Assembly: GCA_020832555.1 (NCBI GenBank)
Contig: JAFIEM010000007.1
Location: 1 to 64,000, forward strand
DNA from: Natronohydrobacter sp.
Lineage (GTDB): Bacteria > Pseudomonadota > Alphaproteobacteria > Rhodobacterales > Rhodobacteraceae
DNA length: 64,000 bases
Direction: 5' to 3'
Every line of letters begins with the position of its first letter. The first letter of the stretch is position 1. The notes under the pieces were generated by a model. It worked only from the letters and a program-made list of their open reading frames with translations, made no database searches and had not been told where the DNA came from. A program made the position numbers and the translations under genes. This document shows, piece by piece, positions 3,567 through 13,955 of this stretch.

Positions 3567-5411
3567 CTATTCCAGCAACCCGAAGCGGTGCATCTTGTTG
3601 TAAAGAGTCTTGCGTGAAATCCCGAGATAGGCTGCGGTATCACCGCGCCGGAAACGGTTCTTGCGCAAGGCGTCCAGCAACCAGTCCCGTTCTGTGACCG
3701 GCTGGTAGCTGTGCTCTGACATATCCGGCATGTCGGCGGTTCTGTGGCCAATCGCCGAAGAAATCTGCGCCGAGCCGATCGTCATATGTTCCGCTTCAAG
3801 TGCTGCGCGGTCGATCACCGAGCGCAGTTCCGGTATGTTTCCCGGCCAGGGATGGGCCAGAAGCAGGCGGTAGCCATCTGCGGAAATCTGCTGCCCGCGC
3901 CCCGCCATTCCCAGACGATGCCGGGCGAGGGCGGGAACGTCTTCGGGGCGTTCGCGCAAGGGGGGAATCTCGACCCTGCCGGCCTGAAATCTGCGGGACA
4001 GGGCCGGGATCAGCCCGGTTCCAAGGTCAGCGCCGATCTGGCAGACCAGAACCAGACGGGCATTGCTCTCTGCCCGGAGCGCGCCTCGCGGCGGGTCATC
4101 TGCCATGAGGGCATCGTCTTCGAGCCAGTCTGCCAGCCGCCGTTGCAGGTCGGGCGACAGGGTTTCGGCATTTTCGATGACAACGGTGCTGCCGGGTCTG
4201 GCCAGAAAGCCCTGACGCCGCGTGCCATCGCCAAAAAGGGCGATTTCGGGCTGTGCGTCGGCGCTACCCGCGCGCAGCGTCAGAAGCGGGCCCTCGCGCC
4301 GTGACAATGGATGCAGCGCGCGGGCAAGTGTCGTGCGCCCAAGTCCGGCTTCGCCGCATATCTTTACGGGAATCCGGGTGGCCGCCAGCCGGGTGATCTG
4401 TTCCAGCACCGAGATCACGAATTCCGATTGCCCGACAACGCCGCCGATCCGGGCCGTGCGCGCCAGTTCGCGCGACTGCACGGTATTCGCCTGTTTGAGC
4501 AGGCCAAACGCCTTGAAGGCCGAGGTGCGTTCGGTGACAGACATTTCCAGCGGCATGCGGTCCAGCGTCGAGCCCCCCACATACCCGTCGGCGCGCGCCT
4601 CGTCGCAGACGCGGAACATGTCATCGGGGCTGATGATGGGGCCGCCTTCGACGAAACAGAGCATGTCGGGTGCCTTGCTTCGGACCTGAGTGAAAATCCG
4701 GCGCGCGCGGTCTGCGGCCTCGGCAATGGTGAAGCTCTGGGCCACGGCCTGCACCCCGCCTGCATTCCAGCCGAAATTCAGGCAGATCATGTCCACTCTG
4801 GTCGCGATAAGCTGTGCGATTTCGGCGCGGGTCTTGGCATAGCCGAAAGTCATCAGTCCGGCTGCGCGCGCCAGTGCCAGCATCCGGGCTTCACGGGCGA
4901 AACCGAGACCGGCCTCTTCCAGCCGCAGGCGGAACTGGCCATCGAAATGGATCGCTGAGGGGAAATTCGTGATCCCCTGATAGCCGGTCTCACAGACCTG
5001 CGCCACGATCTGTTCCGGGCTGGTCGCCGGATCGAAACAGCAGGCGCCGAACAGCACCGGCACATCCACGCGGTCCAGAATTTCGCGGCGCGCAAAGCCA
5101 TCCGTGAACTGGTTGGAATTGTTCAGCGGCAAGAGTGCGGCCAGCGAGGCCGCGCCCATGACCCGGAAACGCCCGGCATTCAGCGCGAGCAGAAAATCCG
5201 CCCCACCGCGCACGGCGGCTTCTGCGGTCATTCCGACCCCGATCGCCCCACCGACAAGCAGGCTTGCATTGCCCGCTGTCCTTTTGCGCAGAAGCTCTTG
5301 AAGTGCTGCGGACTGCGCTTGAGGTGCGGCTGTGATTCCGTCTGGATCATGCATATCGGACGAGTCCATCAGCGCAGGCGCGGGCGGGATCCAGTTCGTG
5401 GCCATATTCAA
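3567..5411 (-). CDS. Regulator: PEP_hydrolase/Tm-1-like TIM barrel, NtrC-type AAA+ domain, Fis-type HTH
   Basis: N-terminal GGADFLLALNAGRFRVMG...GITNFPSAIHFDG...MICLNFGWNAGG...GGSTLDRMPLE; AAA+ Walker A CGEAGLGRTTLARALH; C-terminal LLDALRKNRFRRGDTAAYLGISRKTLYNKMHRFGL. Start may be internal (about 5354-5411). Confidence 0.85.
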   Translation of the reverse strand: MNMATNWIPPAPALMDSSDMHDPDGITAAPQAQSAALQELLRKRTAGNASLLVGGAIGVGMTAEAAVRGGADFLLALNAGRFRVMGAASLAALLPLNNSNQFTDGFARREILDRVDVPVLFGACCFDPATSPEQIVAQVCETGYQGITNFPSAIHFDGQFRLRLEEAGLGFAREARMLALARAAGLMTFGYAKTRAEIAQLIATRVDMICLNFGWNAGGVQAVAQSFTIAEAADRARRIFTQVRSKAPDMLCFVEGGPIISPDDMFRVCDEARADGYVGGSTLDRMPLEMSVTERTSAFKAFGLLKQANTVQSRELARTARIGGVVGQSEFVISVLEQITRLAATRIPVKICGEAGLGRTTLARALHPLSRREGPLLTLRAGSADAQPEIALFGDGTRRQGFLARPGSTVVIENAETLSPDLQRRLADWLEDDALMADDPPRGALRAESNARLVLVCQIGADLGTGLIPALSRRFQAGRVEIPPLRERPEDVPALARHRLGMAGRGQQISADGYRLLLAHPWPGNIPELRSVIDRAALEAEHMTIGSAQISSAIGHRTADMPDMSEHSYQPVTERDWLLDALRKNRFRRGDTAAYLGISRKTLYNKMHRFGLLE

Positions 5412-6060
5412 CAGGGCAGAAGAGGCGCAGGGATGCCGGAGTTCGCGCGCGCAGGGCTGTCAATGTCGCTGCGGCTTTCTGCCCGGCGCTGGCGCGGTTA
5501 CGCCAATCTGTTGACGGCGGACCGGGATGGATCACCAGATCACGGAGCCCCCGTTCCATCAGACGTATTGCATTCTCGGTCGAGGTCGCAAATCCAACCA
5601 CGGAAAACCCCTGTTGGCTGAACTGCTGCAAGATCTCTGCTTCCCGCTCTACGCCCAGATCGGCGCTTTCGAATCCGCGCGCGGCTGTGCCATCGACCAC
5701 CTGAATGGTCGGAAAATTCGTGACCGCCGTGATATTTGCGGATTTCAGCAGCCGTGTGACATCGCGCAGCCGCAAGAATGGATCGACGCAAAGCAGCGCC
5801 GCGATCTGCGCGCAAGCGGCTGTTTCCGGCAGCGCGTTGCCCCTGGTTTCGCCGCTCAGGGCAGAGAACAATGCGCCGTTGATGTCGAGGACGGGCAGGA
5901 TCGACAAGAGATCGCGCTGTGCGACCGGCAGTCTGTCCAGCCAGGGCGCGAAGATTTGTAAGGGCCGGGAATCGTCGCCAGCGGTTGCGCTGTCGCGACC
6001 TGCCCGGATCAGCAAATCCGGCAGGCGGTCTGCCGGGTTTTTGGGGTCGACGTTACTCAT
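5347..6060 (-). CDS. PEP_hydrolase-family TIM-barrel protein, divergent and probably non-canonical
   Basis: ILPVLDINGALFSALSG...ITAVTNFPTIQVVDG...LGVEREAEILQQFSQQGFSVVGFATSTENAIRLMERGLRDLVIHPG parallels the other TIM-barrel genes; overlaps the downstream regulator gene. Confidence 0.7.
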   Translation of the reverse strand: MSNVDPKNPADRLPDLLIRAGRDSATAGDDSRPLQIFAPWLDRLPVAQRDLLSILPVLDINGALFSALSGETRGNALPETAACAQIAALLCVDPFLRLRDVTRLLKSANITAVTNFPTIQVVDGTAARGFESADLGVEREAEILQQFSQQGFSVVGFATSTENAIRLMERGLRDLVIHPGPPSTDWRNRASAGQKAAATLTALRARTPASLRLFCPVEYGHELDPARACADGLVRYA

Positions 6061-6188
6061 TTTTACCCAATATCTGCCGGAATTGGCTGTGGCAAGCACC
6101 CATTCATCTGGTCAATATTGAGGAATAAAGACGCCGCCACCGTGTGGGAGGCCCCTTGGGGTTCGCGGGGCGTGCCGAGGAGGAAAAC

Positions 6189-7082
6189 GTGTCTCTGCAA
6201 TTCATTCTGACCGTCACCCTCAACGGGCTGACGCTGGCATCGCTTTACTTTATCGTCGCCAGTGGCTTTTCGTTGATCTTTGGGCTGATGCGCACTGTCA
6301 ACATGGCGCATGGGTCGCTTTACATGGTCGGCGCCTATGTTGGCTTCGCTGTCTATGATCCGCTTTATGCTTCTGATGTCTGGGCATCACACGCCTGGCT
6401 GATCGGTATTGCCGCAGGTATTCTGGCCGCAGCGCTTGTGGGACTGTTCATGCAAGTGGCGCTGCTGGGCTGGATGCAGGGGCAAGAGCTGCGTCAGGCG
6501 CTGGTCACGATTGGCCTGTCGATCATCATTGCCGATCAGCTTCTGGCCCTGTTCGGTGGCAATCCGTTCCGCTTCTTCACGCCGGAACTGCTGTTTGGTC
6601 CGACCGAACTGCCGGTGATCGGGCGCTATCCGATATTCCGGCTGTTTCAGGTGGTTCTTGCGGTTGCTGTGGGCATCGGGCTGTGGCTTTTGCTGAACAA
6701 GACCAAGCTGGGAATTGTCGTGCGCGCAGGTGTCGATGACCGGCAGATGCTGGCCGCCTGCGGGGTCAATGTGCCCTTGGTCGCGGCCACGGTCTTTGCG
6801 CTTGGTGCGGGTCTGGCGGGGCTGGGTGGCGTGATCGGGGCCACGGCGCAGCCAATGGCACTGGGTGTCGATGCGCGCTTCCTGCTGATGTCGCTGGTCG
6901 TGGTGATCGTGGGCGGCATGGGGTCGATTGGCGGTACGGCGCTTGGCGCTTTGCTGATCGGACTGGCTGAACAATGGGGGCAGGTGCTGTTTCCGACCTA
7001 CTCGGTGATCCTGACTTTCGTGATCATGGCGACGGTGCTTGCTGTCTGGCCGCAGGGCTTGCTGGGAAGGAAGCCGACATGA
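6189..7082 (+). CDS. Branched-chain amino acid-type ABC transporter permease (LivH family)
   Basis: TLASLYFIVASGFSLIFGLMRTVNMAHGSLYMVGAYVGF...GGMGSIGGTALGALLIGL; GTG start. Confidence 0.92.
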   Translation: MSLQFILTVTLNGLTLASLYFIVASGFSLIFGLMRTVNMAHGSLYMVGAYVGFAVYDPLYASDVWASHAWLIGIAAGILAAALVGLFMQVALLGWMQGQELRQALVTIGLSIIIADQLLALFGGNPFRFFTPELLFGPTELPVIGRYPIFRLFQVVLAVAVGIGLWLLLNKTKLGIVVRAGVDDRQMLAACGVNVPLVAATVFALGAGLAGLGGVIGATAQPMALGVDARFLLMSLVVVIVGGMGSIGGTALGALLIGLAEQWGQVLFPTYSVILTFVIMATVLAVWPQGLLGRKPT

Positions 7083-8086
7083 TCATGATGACCTCTCGCC
7101 AATGGCTGGCAACTGCTGCCGGTGTTGTGATCCTGCTGTCGCTGCCGCTGTTTCTGCCGAATTTCTGGCTGGTGAATATCTTCGGTCGGGCCATGGTTTA
7201 CGGCGTTGTTGCGCTGTCGCTGACCTTTCTGGCGCATTATGGCGGCTTCGTGTCGCTGGCGCAGACCATGGTTGCGGGGGTTGCAGGCTATGCGGTTGCG
7301 ATGATGGCCCCGACGGCCATTCCGCTGGGGCCGCTGGCGATGCCGTATTTTGCCGCCATTCCGCTGGCCCTGCTTGCGGCAACGGTTGCCGGTGCCATCG
7401 TCGGAATGATCGCGGTCAATACCCGCGAGATCTATCTGCTTATGATCACGCTGGCGCTGGCCGTGGGCTTAAGCCTGTTTGCGCAATCCAACATTACCTG
7501 GTTCCGGGGCTATGAGGGGATCCGCAACATCATCGGCCCCGAGGTCATGGGGCTGCCCTTCCGCACGCCACTTGTATTCTACTATGTGGCTCTGGGTGTC
7601 GCCGTGTCGATGTTCCTGCTGGTGCTCTATGTCGTGCGCACGCCCTTCGGGCTGGTCCTGCAGGCGATCCGCGATTCTGACCGGCGGGCTGCGGCCATTG
7701 GCTATTATGTCGGGCTGCACCGGATCGCCTCTTTCGCGCTGGCAGGTTTCATTGCGGGCTGGGGCGGGGTGCTGATCACCTTCTACAATATCGGGATCAC
7801 GCCCAGTTCCATCGGGCTATGGGCCACGGTTGCCGTGCTGATCATGGCTGTGATCGGAGGATTGGGTCATCCGCTGGGCGCGTTCATCGGCGCGCTGATC
7901 TACACAGTGATGGATACTTTCGCCTCGTCGATCATCGGGCATGACCGGTTCAACACGCTGATCGGGTTGGTGTTTCTGGCAATTGTCCTTTTGTCGCCGG
8001 ATGGCGTCTGGGGTCTGGGCAAGCGGCTTTCCACAGCGCTGGGGAAAAGACCGCAGGTGAACGCGGACAGGGAGACATCTCTCTGA
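7079..8086 (+). CDS. Branched-chain amino acid-type ABC transporter permease (LivM family)
   Basis: ATGA overlap with LivH; LSLTFLAHYGGFVSLAQTMVAGVAGYA...VRTPFGLVLQAIRDSDRRAAAIGYYV. Confidence 0.92.
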   Translation: MIMMTSRQWLATAAGVVILLSLPLFLPNFWLVNIFGRAMVYGVVALSLTFLAHYGGFVSLAQTMVAGVAGYAVAMMAPTAIPLGPLAMPYFAAIPLALLAATVAGAIVGMIAVNTREIYLLMITLALAVGLSLFAQSNITWFRGYEGIRNIIGPEVMGLPFRTPLVFYYVALGVAVSMFLLVLYVVRTPFGLVLQAIRDSDRRAAAIGYYVGLHRIASFALAGFIAGWGGVLITFYNIGITPSSIGLWATVAVLIMAVIGGLGHPLGAFIGALIYTVMDTFASSIIGHDRFNTLIGLVFLAIVLLSPDGVWGLGKRLSTALGKRPQVNADRETSL

Positions 8087-8191
8087 TCTGACGGGCGGCA
8101 CTGCGACCCGACCGCCTGTCCTGCTGATCAAAGGGTCCGAGATATCTTTGCCGGGAGGAGGAAACCCGGCGCAACACGGAGGAGACCACTA

Positions 8192-9457
8192 ATGTTGATT
8201 TCTCGCAGGAATACAGTCGCCTGGGCGATGGGCACGGTTGCGGCGATGTTTGCCGTCACGGGTGCCCTGGCGCAGGATGGCCCGATCCGCATCGGGTCGA
8301 TCACCACGCTGGAAGGCCCCTTTGCGACCGGTGGCCAGGACGCCTATCGCGCGATGGAAATGGCTTTCGAGGCCATCGACTACACGATTGGCGGGCGGCA
8401 GATCGAATGGATCCGGGAATCCTCGAACGCAACGCCCGATGTGGCACTGGCACGCGCGCGCAAACTGATCGAGCAGGACGAGGTCGATATCATCATCGGC
8501 CCGCTTTCGGGGGCAGAGGGCATTGCGCTGCGCGACTATTCGCGCACGCTGGAAGGCAAGACCATCGTCAACGGCTCGTCGGGGGCGGCGGATACCACGC
8601 TGCGAGATCCCTCGCCGAATTTCTTCCGCTTCAACACGGAAGGCACGCAATGGATGGCCGGTCTGGGCACCTATGCCTATGAAGAGATGGGGTCGCGCCA
8701 TGTGGCCCTTGTGGCCGCAGATTATGCTTTTCCCTATGCGCAGGTGTTCGGATTCATGCATGAATATTGCGAATTGGGCGGGGCTGTGACCAAGCTCTGG
8801 TCGCCACTGAACACGACCGACTTCTCGTCGATCATCGCGCAATTCCCTTCCGATGTGGATGCAGTGGTTCTGATTCAGGGCGGAACAGACGCGCTGGCCT
8901 TCCTGACGCAATATGCCGAAGTTGGTGGCGATCTGCCGATCATTGGCGGCTCGATCACGGCAGACCAGACGCTGCTTTCGGCGCGCGGCCCGCATCAGAG
9001 CCTGATGGAAGGCATGGTGGCCGCAGGTCCGATTGCCGATCTGAACGAAGATCCGAACTGGCAGGATTTCGTTGCGCGCTATCGCGAGCGCTGGGGATCT
9101 GAAGGGTTCGACTCGCCTTCGATCCATGCGGTGAATTACTACACCAACACCATTGCCGTGATTCAGGCGCTGGAGGAAGTGGGTGGCGATCTGTCCGACA
9201 ATCAGGCTGCATTCCAGGCGGCACTGGCTGCGGCTGAGTTCACGGCACCCACAGGCGCGAATGTCGCCCTTGACCACAACAGGCAGGCCATTTCGGATAT
9301 CTTCCTGACCCGCATCGTCAATGACGGTGGCACCATGCGGACCGAAGCCTTCGGCCGGACCCCGAATGTCAGCCAGACACTCGGGATGGATCAGGACGCA
9401 TTCATGGCGCTCGGCTCGCCCTCGCGCGACAATCCCGACTGCCCGCCCGCGCGCTGA
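8192..9457 (+). CDS. Liv-type ABC transporter substrate-binding protein
   Basis: Signal peptide, then IRIGSITTLEGPFATGGQDAYRAMEMAFEAIDYTIGGRQIEWI; ARKLIEQDEVDIIIGPLSG. Confidence 0.92.
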   Translation: MLISRRNTVAWAMGTVAAMFAVTGALAQDGPIRIGSITTLEGPFATGGQDAYRAMEMAFEAIDYTIGGRQIEWIRESSNATPDVALARARKLIEQDEVDIIIGPLSGAEGIALRDYSRTLEGKTIVNGSSGAADTTLRDPSPNFFRFNTEGTQWMAGLGTYAYEEMGSRHVALVAADYAFPYAQVFGFMHEYCELGGAVTKLWSPLNTTDFSSIIAQFPSDVDAVVLIQGGTDALAFLTQYAEVGGDLPIIGGSITADQTLLSARGPHQSLMEGMVAAGPIADLNEDPNWQDFVARYRERWGSEGFDSPSIHAVNYYTNTIAVIQALEEVGGDLSDNQAAFQAALAAAEFTAPTGANVALDHNRQAISDIFLTRIVNDGGTMRTEAFGRTPNVSQTLGMDQDAFMALGSPSRDNPDCPPAR

Positions 9458-9518
9458 TCGGACCATGCCTGCCCCCGGTGAACGGATCGGGGGCAGGCCA
9501 CTCAAGACAGGAATTCTG

Positions 9519-10289
9519 ATGTCTGCGTCACCCTCTCATTCTTCTGAACTGCCCGCCTTGATGCTGGAGGGCGTGGGCCGCCGATTTGGGGCGCTCCGGG
9601 CGGTCAGTGACGTGACCCTGCGGATCGAACAGGGCGAACGCCGCGCGATTCTGGGACCGAACGGCGCGGGCAAGACCACGCTTTTCAACACGATCTGCGG
9701 CGACTTCCCGCCCACATCGGGCAAGATCACCTTTTTCGGCACCGATATTTCGCAACTCAAGCCGCACCGGCGCGCGCGTCTGGGGATCGGGCGCACCTAT
9801 CAGAGTTCGACGCTGTTCAGCGGTCTGAGCGTGCGGGAAAACCTGTATCTGGCGGTGCGTGCCATGAAACCGGGGCGGTTTTCGCTGCTCAAGGCTGGTC
9901 CGGGCCATGCCGATCTGCGCCGCGTGCAGGATCTGGCGCAGCAGGTGCGTGTGGAACATATCCTTGATACGCGTATCGATGCAATATCACATGGCCAGCG
10001 GCGTCAGGTCGAGATCGGCATGGCGCTGGCAGGCAACCCGCGTCTGCTGATGCTGGATGAACCCGCTGCGGGCCTGTCCGCTGCCGAGCGGCCGCAACTG
10101 GTGGCGCTGATGGCGGAACTGCCCCGCGATCTGACGTTGGTTCTGATCGAGCATGATATGGATGTGGCACTGGCCAATTCCGAGAAAGTGACCGTGATGA
10201 AGGATGGTGAGGTGGTGGTCGAGTCCACATCCGACAAGGTGGCCGATGATCCAATGGTGCAGGCCATCTATCTCGGGGAGGGGCATTGA
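9519..10289 (+). CDS. Liv-type ABC transporter ATP-binding protein (LivG family)
   Basis: Walker A GPNGAGKTTLFN, signature SHGQRRQVEIGMALAGNPRLLMLDEPAAGLS. Confidence 0.93.
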   Translation: MSASPSHSSELPALMLEGVGRRFGALRAVSDVTLRIEQGERRAILGPNGAGKTTLFNTICGDFPPTSGKITFFGTDISQLKPHRRARLGIGRTYQSSTLFSGLSVRENLYLAVRAMKPGRFSLLKAGPGHADLRRVQDLAQQVRVEHILDTRIDAISHGQRRQVEIGMALAGNPRLLMLDEPAAGLSAAERPQLVALMAELPRDLTLVLIEHDMDVALANSEKVTVMKDGEVVVESTSDKVADDPMVQAIYLGEGH

Positions 10290-10996
10290 TGCGCGGTGCT
10301 CTGGAAATTCGCGATATGCATGTGCGCTTCGGCAAGGCCACGATCCTGCAGGGTGTCAGCCTGTCGGTTGGTGAAAAGCCGGTTTCGGTGATCGGGCGCA
10401 ACGGGATGGGCAAGACCACGATGTGTTCGGCGCTGATGGGCATGGTCCCGGCCAGCGGCAGCGCGAAGCTGGACGGCAAGGAATTGCTTGGTCTGGGCAC
10501 TGGCAAGGTCGCGCGGGCGGGGATGGCGATTGTGCCGCAGGGGCGGCGTGTGTTCCCGTCGCTGTCGGTGCATGAACATCTGCTTCTGGTCGCGCAGCGC
10601 GGCAACCCGCCCTGGACCATCGAGCGGGTCTACGACACCTTCCCGCGTCTGGCCGAACGGCGCAGGAATGGCGGCAACCAGCTTTCGGGCGGCGAGCAGC
10701 AGATGCTGGCGATTTCACGCGCACTGTTGATGAATCCGCGTCTGGTGATCATGGATGAACCCTCGGAAGGGCTGGCGCCGGTGATCGTGGACCACTTGAT
10801 CGAAGTGCTGCGCACCATCGCGCAGGAAGGCATGGGGTTGTTGCTGATCGAGCAGAACCTGCGCGTTGCCACATCGGTTGCCGATGAGGTCTCGATCATG
10901 GTGACGGGGCGGATCGCGGCAACGGTCGGGTCTGCGGAACTGGCGCGCGACCGCGAGTTGCAGAACCGGTATCTGGGGGTCAGCCATGGTCATTAG
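10289..10996 (+). CDS. Liv-type ABC transporter ATP-binding protein (LivF family)
   Basis: Walker A GRNGMGKTTMC, LSGGEQQMLAISRALLMNPRLVIMDEPSEGLAPVIV. Confidence 0.93.
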   Translation: MRGALEIRDMHVRFGKATILQGVSLSVGEKPVSVIGRNGMGKTTMCSALMGMVPASGSAKLDGKELLGLGTGKVARAGMAIVPQGRRVFPSLSVHEHLLLVAQRGNPPWTIERVYDTFPRLAERRRNGGNQLSGGEQQMLAISRALLMNPRLVIMDEPSEGLAPVIVDHLIEVLRTIAQEGMGLLLIEQNLRVATSVADEVSIMVTGRIAATVGSAELARDRELQNRYLGVSHGH

Positions 10997-12188
10997 GCGC
11001 GTCTATGTGATCGGCACCTGCGACACGAAAGAGGCCGAACTTTCCTATGCCTGCGAACGTGTCCGAGCCATGGGCGCTGCGCCGGTGCTGGTCGATGTGG
11101 GCACACGCGGGGCGGGTGCCCACGCCGATGTCACAGCGGCCGAGGTCGCGGCTTTCCACCCCGATGGGGCGGGGGCCGTTCTGGGGCTGGAGGACCGGGG
11201 CGCGGCCATCACGACGATGGCGGATGCGCTGACCCGGTGGCTGCTGACACGCGAGGATATCGGGGCGGTTCTTGGCCTTGGCGGGTCGGGCAATACGGCG
11301 CTTGTCACACAGGCCATGCGGGCCTTGCCGGTGGGTGTGCCGAAGCTGATGCTTTCGACCGTGGCCTCGGGGCAAGTGGCGCAATATGTGGGCGCGACGG
11401 ATCTGGCGATGATGCCTTCGGTTACGGATGTGGCCGGGCTGAATGCGATCAGCCGCCGCGTGATCGCGAATGCGGCGCATGCGGCAGCGGGCATGGCGCT
11501 GAACCCGGTGCCAGAGGACAAGGGCGATCTGCCGGGCGTGGGGATCACCATGTTCGGGGTCACGACCACTTGCGTTGATCACATGCGCGCGGCAATCGCC
11601 GGTCAGGCCGAGCCTTTTGTTTTTCATGCTACGGGCACGGGCGGGGCGGCGATGGAAAAGCTTGCCTCATCCGGGTTGCTGGCGGGTCTGCTGGATGTCA
11701 CGGCGACCGAGATTGCCGATCATCTGGTCGGTGGTGTCATGCCCTGTTCCGCCGACCGCTACGGCGTGATTGCCCGGACCGGGCTGCCCTGGGTCGGGTC
11801 CGTGGGCGCGGTCGATATGGTCAATTTCAATGGCCGCGAGACGGTGCCGGAACGGTTCAACGCGCGCAATCTGCTGGTGCATAATCCGCAGATCACCCTC
11901 ATGCGCACCACGCCCGCGGAAAACGTGCAGATCGCCCATTTCCTGACCGAGCGGCTGAACCGCTGCGATGGGCCTGTCACGTTGTTTCTGCCGCTGAACG
12001 GGGTTTCGGCGGTGGATGCGCCGGGCCAGCCCTTTCATGACCCTGCGGCCAATGACGCGCTGTTTGCCACGATCCGTGAAACATTCCGTCCCGGCCCGAA
12101 GCGGCACCTTGTCGAACTTCCGCTGCATATCAACGACCCGGCTTTCGCGCAGGCGATGGCCGCCGAATTTCTCAGGATGCTCTCATGA
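10986..12188 (+). CDS. Tm-1-like ATP-binding domain protein (UPF0261 family)
   Basis: [27 protein letters not shown]...[35 protein letters not shown]...[11 protein letters not shown] matches the UPF0261 pattern. Confidence 0.88.
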
Positions 12189-13030
12189 CCCAGATCCGGA
12201 ATCCCCATCGCGACCGTACTACACTGATGCGCCGTTTTCAGGACATGGCCGCAAAGCGCATTCCGATCATCGGCGGCGGGGCCGGGACCGGGCTATCCGC
12301 CAAGAGCGAGGAACATGGCGGCATTGATCTGATCGTGATCTATAATTCCGGGCGTTACCGGATGGCGGGGCGCGGATCTCTGGCCGGACTTCTGGCCTAT
12401 GGCAATGCGAATGAGATCGTCGTCGACATGGCGCGCGAGGTCTTGCCTGTGGTGCGCAACACGCCGGTTCTGGCCGGGGTGAACGGAACCGATCCTTTCG
12501 TGATGATGGACCAGCATCTGGACCGGCTGAAGGCGATGGGGATTGCCGGGGTGCAGAATTTCCCGACGGTGGGGCTGATCGACGGGGTGTTCCGGCAGAA
12601 TCTGGAAGAGACCGGCATGAGCTATGCGCTGGAGGTCGAGATGATCCGCATGGCGCATGAGCGCGACTTGCTGACCACGCCCTATGTCTTTTCCGCATCC
12701 GAAGCAGTGGCAATGGCCGAGGCCGGAGCAGATATTCTGGTGATGCATATGGGCCTGACTTCTGGCGGGACCATTGGTGCCGAAACGGTCCGGTCGCTGG
12801 ATGATTGTGTGAAGGATATTGATGCCTGGGGTGAAGCGGCCTTGGAGGTGCGCCCTGACATCCTGATCATCTGTCACGGTGGGCCTATCGCCACGCCCGA
12901 AGATGCGTCCTATGTTCTGCGCAGCTCGCGGCATTGCCACGGATTCTACGGGGCCAGTTCGATGGAACGCCTGCCCACCGAAATCGCGCTCAGCGAAACC
13001 ACCCGCGCCTTCAAGGCGCTGACCTTCTGA
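12185..13030 (+). CDS. PEP_hydrolase/Tm-1 C-domain-like TIM-barrel protein
   Basis: ATGA overlap with the UPF0261 gene; [54 protein letters not shown]...[13 protein letters not shown]...[11 protein letters not shown]. Confidence 0.9.
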
Positions 13031-13040
13031 GGAGGCTCTC

Positions 13041-13955
13041 ATGGCGGAAGCATTGGCGACAACCATCATCGCGGCCCCTGTGGAGCAAGTCTGGAAGGTG
13101 CTGCGCGATTTCAACGCGATGCCGGTCTGGAATCCCGCTGTGACCGACAGCAAGATCGAAGACGGGCGCGATGCGGATAGTGTGGGCTGCATCCGCGCCT
13201 TTCATCTGGCGGATGGAACCTTTGTACGCGAACGCCTGCTGGAACTGGACGACAGCCGCTATGTGCTGCGCTACAATTTCGAGACCCCGGCCTTTCCGGT
13301 GCGGAACTATCTTGCCACGCTGGAACTGATCCCGGTGACAAACGGGAATACGACCTTTGTGCGCTGGCATGCCCGTTTCGACGAAGAACCACAGGATGCC
13401 GGGAAATATGCCGCGCTGATCTCGACCGGGGTTTTCGCAAATGGATTGCGCGCGCTGGCCGATTATGTCGTGACGCAACCGGCGCCATCGGTTGCGGATG
13501 CGCGTTGGCAGGGATTGCGGCCTGCCAAGGTGTTCACCTCAAGCGTGATCCGTGCGCCGCTTGCCGAGGTCTGGGCGAAAATGCGCGATTTTGCGGGCAT
13601 GATGCATTGGCATGCGGATATCCCCTCGATGGAAATGATCGGGGGCGTCCGGTCCGACAAGGTGTCGGGCGTGCGGGATTTCATCTTTGGCGAAGGGCAG
13701 TTGCATGAGCAATTGACCTGGCTTTCGGATCAGGACCATGCCTTTCGCTACCGGATTCTGAAAAGTCCGATGCCCTGGCTGAATTATCATGCGGGGGCAC
13801 GGCTTTACCCTTTGACTGACCGCTATCAGACCTTTGCGGTCTGGACAGCCGACTGGACCGCTGCGCCCGAGGATGATCTGGACCTGATCCCGAACGTTCA
13901 TGAAAACGTTTTTCAGAAAGCGTTCGATACGCTTGATGCGCAATTGCGACGGTAG
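13041..13955 (+). CDS. Tandem SRPBCC (START-like) domain protein
   Basis: Two repeats: TTIIAAPVEQVWKVLRDFNAMPVWNPAVTDS and SSVIRAPLAEVWAKMRDFAGMMHWHADIPSM. Confidence 0.85.
   Translation: MAEALATTIIAAPVEQVWKVLRDFNAMPVWNPAVTDSKIEDGRDADSVGCIRAFHLADGTFVRERLLELDDSRYVLRYNFETPAFPVRNYLATLELIPVTNGNTTFVRWHARFDEEPQDAGKYAALISTGVFANGLRALADYVVTQPAPSVADARWQGLRPAKVFTSSVIRAPLAEVWAKMRDFAGMMHWHADIPSMEMIGGVRSDKVSGVRDFIFGEGQLHEQLTWLSDQDHAFRYRILKSPMPWLNYHAGARLYPLTDRYQTFAVWTADWTAAPEDDLDLIPNVHENVFQKAFDTLDAQLRR

Follow-up and report, generated by a model that had tools for sequence, protein, structure and literature searches.

The window, as we call the whole 64,000-nucleotide stretch of Natronohydrobacter sp. DNA analysed here, carries on its reverse strand a regulator gene that encodes a TIM barrel, a degenerate AAA+ domain and a Fis-type helix-turn-helix (HTH) (Table 1). 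The gene lies divergent from a liv-type transporter operon, which is its predicted target. The reading frame gives a protein of 614 amino acids from a TTG codon at 5411 or 595 amino acids from an ATG codon at 5354, and the ATG is probably the true start, because ATGCATGA there shares bases with the upstream gene's stop codon. Pfam assigned the barrel to PF09370 with a score above the curated cut-off of 33.8 bits, and further recovered AAA_lid_14, HTH_8 (residues 573-610) and a weak Sigma54_activat match (30.3 bits, compared with 226.6 bits in one GAFTGA-containing relative). By sequence, the nearest solved structures were 2p10 (Mll9387), which matches the barrel, and NtrC1/ZraR, which match the remainder of the protein, and a fold model with a mean pLDDT of 81.6 matched 2p10, NtrX, NtrC1 and VpsR in the PDB. 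The AAA+ domain, the lid and the Fis HTH are those of the sigma-54 enhancer-binding protein (bEBP) family and mark the protein as a bEBP descendant. A preliminary description of this DNA had proposed an NtrC-like regulator with a TIM-barrel sensor at this position, and the four Pfam domains bear that reading out.

Table 1 Coordinates of the regulator, its motifs and the adjacent features in the window.
Feature	Position	Strand	Evidence or remark
Regulator gene, TIM barrel - degenerate AAA+ - Fis HTH	3567..5411	-	ORF, Pfam, fold model
PF09370 (PEP_hydrolase) TIM-barrel sensor domain, residues 41-301	4509..5291	-	Pfam, 243.7 bits
Walker A GEAGLGRTT, invariant Lys replaced by Arg359	4329..4355	-	Alignment to relatives
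L1 region ALFGDGTRRQG, GAFTGA segment deleted	4209..4241	-	8 residues shorter than GAFTGA-containing relatives
Walker B TVVIENAE, Asp-Glu replaced by E413-N414	4164..4187	-	Alignment to relatives
Sensor II WPGNIPEL, Arg replaced by Pro527	3825..3848	-	Alignment to relatives
Fis-type HTH (HTH_8)	3582..3695	-	Pfam; best kept portion of the C-terminal half
TIM2, second, more degenerate partial PF09370 barrel	5347..6060	-	Pfam; upstream of the regulator gene, overlapping it
Putative operator TTACTCA-TTT-TTACCCA, 10-bp direct repeat	6053..6069	+	Promoter alignment; overlaps TIM2 start codon
Predicted liv-operon sigma-70-like promoter, GTGGCA 6089-6094 and TCAATAT 6112-6118	6089..6118	+	Fixed operator offset, 36 loci
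Predicted target operon: liv-type ABC transporter, UPF0261, PF09370, SRPBCC	6189..13955	+	Pfam, neighbourhood comparison
UPF0261 gene, predicted target operon	10986-12188	+	Pfam
Stand-alone PF09370 protein gene, predicted target operon	12185-13030	+	Pfam
SRPBCC protein gene, predicted target operon	13041-13955	+	Pfam

The AAA+ domain has lost the motifs of a sigma-54 activator. None of the four ATPase positions (Walker A Lys, the two residues of Walker B DE, sensor II Arg) is kept, because Arg359, Glu413-Asn414 and Pro527 replace Lys, Asp-Glu and Arg; the Walker B core reads VVIEN against the canonical LLLDE, and sensor II reads GNIPEL against GNxREL. The L1 segment is reduced from the 19 residues of the canonical ELFGHEAGAFTGAxKARxG to 11, and a search along the rest of the regulator found no intact GAFTGA elsewhere. 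Three hallmarks of a bEBP, namely GAFTGA in L1, the Walker A lysine and the Walker B Asp-Glu, are accordingly all missing. The absence of GAFTGA had been pointed out in the preliminary description, which proposed inspecting L1 and Walker B by alignment; the alignment shows an 8-residue deletion with no GAFTGA equivalent, and EN where Walker B should read DE. The same description took Walker A to be kept, which was mistaken, as the invariant Lys is an Arg in this motif.

We collected the family from whole genomes and GTDB contigs and obtained 96 TIM-AAA-Fis proteins, mainly from Alphaproteobacteria. The architecture recurred at about 100 loci along with its gene neighbourhood, in which the regulator is accompanied by TIM2, by a transporter of the liv type or another ABC type, and by genes for UPF0261, an SRPBCC protein and a stand-alone PF09370 enzyme. 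GAFTGA was retained in just 4 of the 96 proteins, L097 from an Ectothiorhodospiraceae MAG, L107 and L121 from Aquisalimonas MAGs, and L119 from Chelativorans sp. YIM 93263, and all four also have the Walker A Lys, the Walker B DE and the sensor II Arg. Searching the family of the Aquisalimonas genome later added three GAFTGA-containing members (L185-L187), for a total of seven; a phylum sample yielded no additional one, and a search of viral contigs found no relatives of the regulator. Loops lacking GAFTGA were either up to 10 residues shorter or replaced in situ (GARVGV, GAVPDL, GMHPSA, GAHPGI). In a subgroup formed by L037 and L043-L049, Walker A is wholly lost and the HTH is kept, and most of these loci have the repeat described below with the usual spacing to the -35 box.

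The state of the loop was matched by the type of promoter. We scanned a sigma-54 matrix, whose weights and scores are approximate, across a 330-bp region spanning the start of the operon's first gene. The top four scores of all loci tested (19.2, 16.5, 16.2 and 14.2) belonged to the GAFTGA-containing loci L119, L121, L097 and L107, compared with a maximum of 12.3 at GAFTGA-lacking loci and 6.3 at the window's liv promoter. These four loci predicted a -24/-12 site before the operon in any further GAFTGA-containing member, and all three members found afterwards matched the prediction, with sites located 75, 119 and 122 bp upstream of the operon that were each the best match of their locus. Overall, the -24/-12 promoter expected at the target operon of a bEBP was present at 7 of 7 GAFTGA-containing loci and at 0 of about 80 GAFTGA-lacking loci, the window included, a co-occurrence that reflects few independent events because the GAFTGA-containing proteins come from one gammaproteobacterial family and one Chelativorans. 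Allowing up to two mismatches, we found no TGGCAC-N5-TTGCW in the intergenic region of the window locus, and the count of this pattern over the whole window was not above chance. The co-occurrence supports the proposal of the preliminary description that, without GAFTGA, the regulator is unlikely to use sigma-54 and perhaps acts with sigma-70.

The possibility that GAFTGA was lost for want of rpoN was rejected: the window's genome encodes two rpoN copies, so an absent sigma factor cannot explain the loss. Sigma-54 is available to the cell, yet the window locus gives no sign of using it. Continued activation of sigma-54 RNA polymerase, through the altered loop or through a mixed ring with another enhancer-binding protein, would fit a genome that encodes rpoN twice along with several intact enhancer-binding proteins, but we consider it very improbable given the lack of an intergenic -24/-12 site at up to two mismatches, the shortened L1 and the altered Walker A and B motifs.

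Aligning the promoters of the window's close relatives brought out a 10-bp direct repeat, our candidate operator. In its general form, TACYCR-N4-TACYCR with at most one mismatch, counted within 400 bp before the operon, it occurred at 7 of 7 GAFTGA-containing and 73 of 87 GAFTGA-lacking loci, versus 77 of 1880 pieces drawn at random from these loci; part of this count is not independent, because the repeat was discovered in the window's close relatives (a dozen loci), and the remaining loci and the genome-wide uniqueness of the repeat are independent evidence. The form TTACYCA-N3-TTACYCA (at most one mismatch) has a single copy in the window's genome, the one listed in Table 1, and the chance expectation for the repeat in the window is 0.10 at up to two mismatches. 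Fourteen of the 87 GAFTGA-lacking loci have no repeat near the tested gene. These are mainly a subgroup with the recognition helix TTRTLYNKIKK in place of SRKTLYNKM, together with loci where the operon starts with a different gene. We dropped an initial idea that GAFTGA-containing and GAFTGA-lacking members have different operators, which came from a first pattern (TTACCCA twice) seemingly absent from the former, because TACYCR half-sites occur in GAFTGA-containing loci too.

The repeat might instead belong to another regulator such as TIM2, with the present protein acting elsewhere or as a partner that does not bind DNA. TIM2 does accompany nearly all family members, but it has no Pfam DNA-binding domain, and the repeat tracks the regulator family, occurs once in this genome and is lacking chiefly at loci whose regulator has another recognition helix. 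We therefore regard this alternative as improbable, and take the Fis HTH of the regulator as the likely reader of the repeat.

The two classes of loci differ in how the half-sites are arranged. At GAFTGA-containing loci they are arrayed in inverted orientation, 50-105 bp upstream of the -24 box, as expected of an enhancer. At GAFTGA-lacking loci, one repeat is oriented toward the operon. A TTG box resembling a -35 element lies 35-37 nt past the repeat start, with the T at +36 contributing 1.29 bits. The score for a -35/-10 promoter at offsets 34-36 from the repeat was 5.61, whereas 500 shuffles gave 3.66 ± 0.17, and the score peaked sharply at offset 35. This places the centre of the repeat at about -63 from the predicted transcription start. 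In the window itself, the -35 (GTGGCA) and -10 (TCAATA) boxes match the consensus poorly. In the Bradyrhizobium and Rhizobium relatives L128-L133, several loci have three or four copies of the repeat at different places, which suggests several target promoters within the cluster.

From these features we judge that the regulator is probably a local activator of sigma-70 type, devoid of ATPase function, that serves the divergent liv-UPF0261-PF09370 operon. Once an enhancer-binding protein of the sigma-54 kind, it would now work in a promoter-proximal, ATPase-independent and sigma-70-dependent manner. Its Fis HTH would bind the direct repeat about 63 bp upstream of the predicted operon start, and from there the protein would help ordinary RNA polymerase at the weak -35/-10 promoter, in class I geometry. 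Since the repeat overlaps the start of the TIM2-regulator operon, binding there probably also curbs the regulator's own synthesis.

The location of the repeat over the TIM2 start codon also bears on repression, which the preliminary description had raised. A repressor at this site could block the TIM2-regulator promoter and, by bending or contacts, the liv promoter, until released by a ligand, and TyrR, which lacks GAFTGA, is known to repress (PMC3162934). Against this, the repeat keeps a fixed distance upstream of the weak liv -35 box, where activators usually sit, and the GAFTGA-containing orthologues that use the same repeat are built as activators. Repression as the main function thus appears rather unlikely to us. 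For the liv operon, the operator position makes a repressor less likely than an activator, whereas repression of the regulator's own operon is plausible.

The sensor of the proposed activator is derived from an enzyme family. Among 71 stand-alone PF09370 proteins, the invariant residues include K40, E42, Y53, S55, R63, H188 and H231. Nearly all regulators carry other residues at these positions, while D48, R57, R59, N125, E150, Y167, S258, R262 and E266 are retained in the regulator barrels. The natural reading is that the pocket binds a pathway compound but does not convert it; the loss of activity is inferred, because the catalytic residues of the PF09370 family are not established. As a non-catalytic paralogue of the operon's own PF09370 protein, the barrel would sense a metabolite of that pathway. 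TIM2, a fast-evolving protein found beside nearly every member of the family, might serve as a co-sensor.

We also asked how the regulator is evolving. Between the window and close relatives, dN/dS was 0.04-0.11 in the barrel, 0-0.10 in the HTH and 0.19-0.26 in the AAA+ core; the AAA+ domain evolves faster and remains constrained, so the gene is not a pseudogene. The faster evolution and the lost motifs of this domain are what decay would leave, but the frame is open, dN/dS is well below 1 in all domains and near 0 in the HTH and TIM domains, the repeat and neighbourhood are conserved over many bacterial families, and the fold model is confident. A decaying, non-functional gene is hence hardly credible.

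Regulators of this kind are already known. The NtrC proteins of Rhodobacter capsulatus and Caulobacter lack GAFTGA and are reported to act at sigma-70 promoters (PMC10274813). They share with the window regulator the NtrC-like AAA+ domain and Fis HTH, the L1 deletion that removes GAFTGA and an alphaproteobacterial host, and the window regulator likewise combines bEBP ancestry with loss of GAFTGA. However, those proteins are phosphorylated response regulators, whereas the window regulator has a TIM barrel where they have the receiver. The title of reference 15 in the cited paper (PMC10274813) calls the NtrC of R. capsulatus ATP-dependent, whereas the window regulator has lost the Walker A Lys and the Walker B DE. 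A further difference is that the window's family still has GAFTGA-containing orthologues with matching sigma-54 promoters. TyrR, DhaR and HupR are other GAFTGA-less relatives that use sigma-70, with VpsR suspected (PMC3162934). They too are AAA+ relatives of sigma-54 activators with a broken GAFTGA, and the fold matches include VpsR and NtrX, but they have other sensor domains and by sequence do not fall in the subfamily of the window regulator. In the genome of the window, a further bEBP relative, L010 (C71, about 21.0-22.6 kb), has a 630-amino acid frame without the entire L1/GAFTGA stretch and with a good Walker A; L004 and L005 carry GAFPGA.

On the sensor side, PF09370 and UPF0261 co-evolve, their genes travel together, and they compose the plant Tm-1-like proteins (PMC5028733). 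The regulator's barrel belongs to PF09370 with the TIM-barrel signal transduction (TBST) proteins, the C-terminal domain of the plant Tm-1-like proteins and Mll9387 (2p10), but the known proteins are stand-alone or fused to UPF0261, and the regulator barrel lacks several residues invariant in the 71 stand-alone proteins. A literature search on the names 'phosphoenolpyruvate hydrolase family' and 'Tm-1-like ATP-binding' found no paper on TIM-AAA-Fis regulators. The analysis now supplies a concrete candidate operator and target operon for this family, and suggests that database names such as 'sigma-54-dependent Fis family transcriptional regulator' are wrong for most of its members.

The new element is thus one family that holds both states with matching promoters. 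Conversion of a sigma-54 activator into a sigma-70 regulator is known mainly from isolated cases; here both states share the same putative operator and neighbours, and the order of steps (loop, ATPase, promoter, operator architecture) becomes directly testable. We lean, by a little, towards a history in which ancestral members, bound at inverted enhancer arrays, looped to promoters of the -24/-12 type. Derived members would then have lost both GAFTGA and the ATPase and would act through one copy of the same operator at about -63 of a sigma-70 promoter, and intermediates would have retained the loop length or Walker B. In a tree of the AAA+, lid and HTH regions, built without the L1 columns and rooted on other enhancer-binding proteins, the family forms one clade with the GAFTGA-containing members basal and all GAFTGA-lacking members together (support 94), requiring one loss. 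In a tree of the barrels, with the enzymes as root, the GAFTGA-containing clade is nested, which implies several losses. Both trees are consistent with loss of GAFTGA rather than gain; they disagree on the number of losses, and we prefer neither, because decayed domains may attract each other. In the Stappia loci L069 (11.4-11.5 kb), L070 and L072, TGGCACGGATCTTCCT about 85 bp before LivH resembles a -24/-12 promoter with a broken -12, and its -24 box occupies the same place as the predicted -35 box; it is possibly a reused fossil sigma-54 promoter, or the resemblance may be chance.
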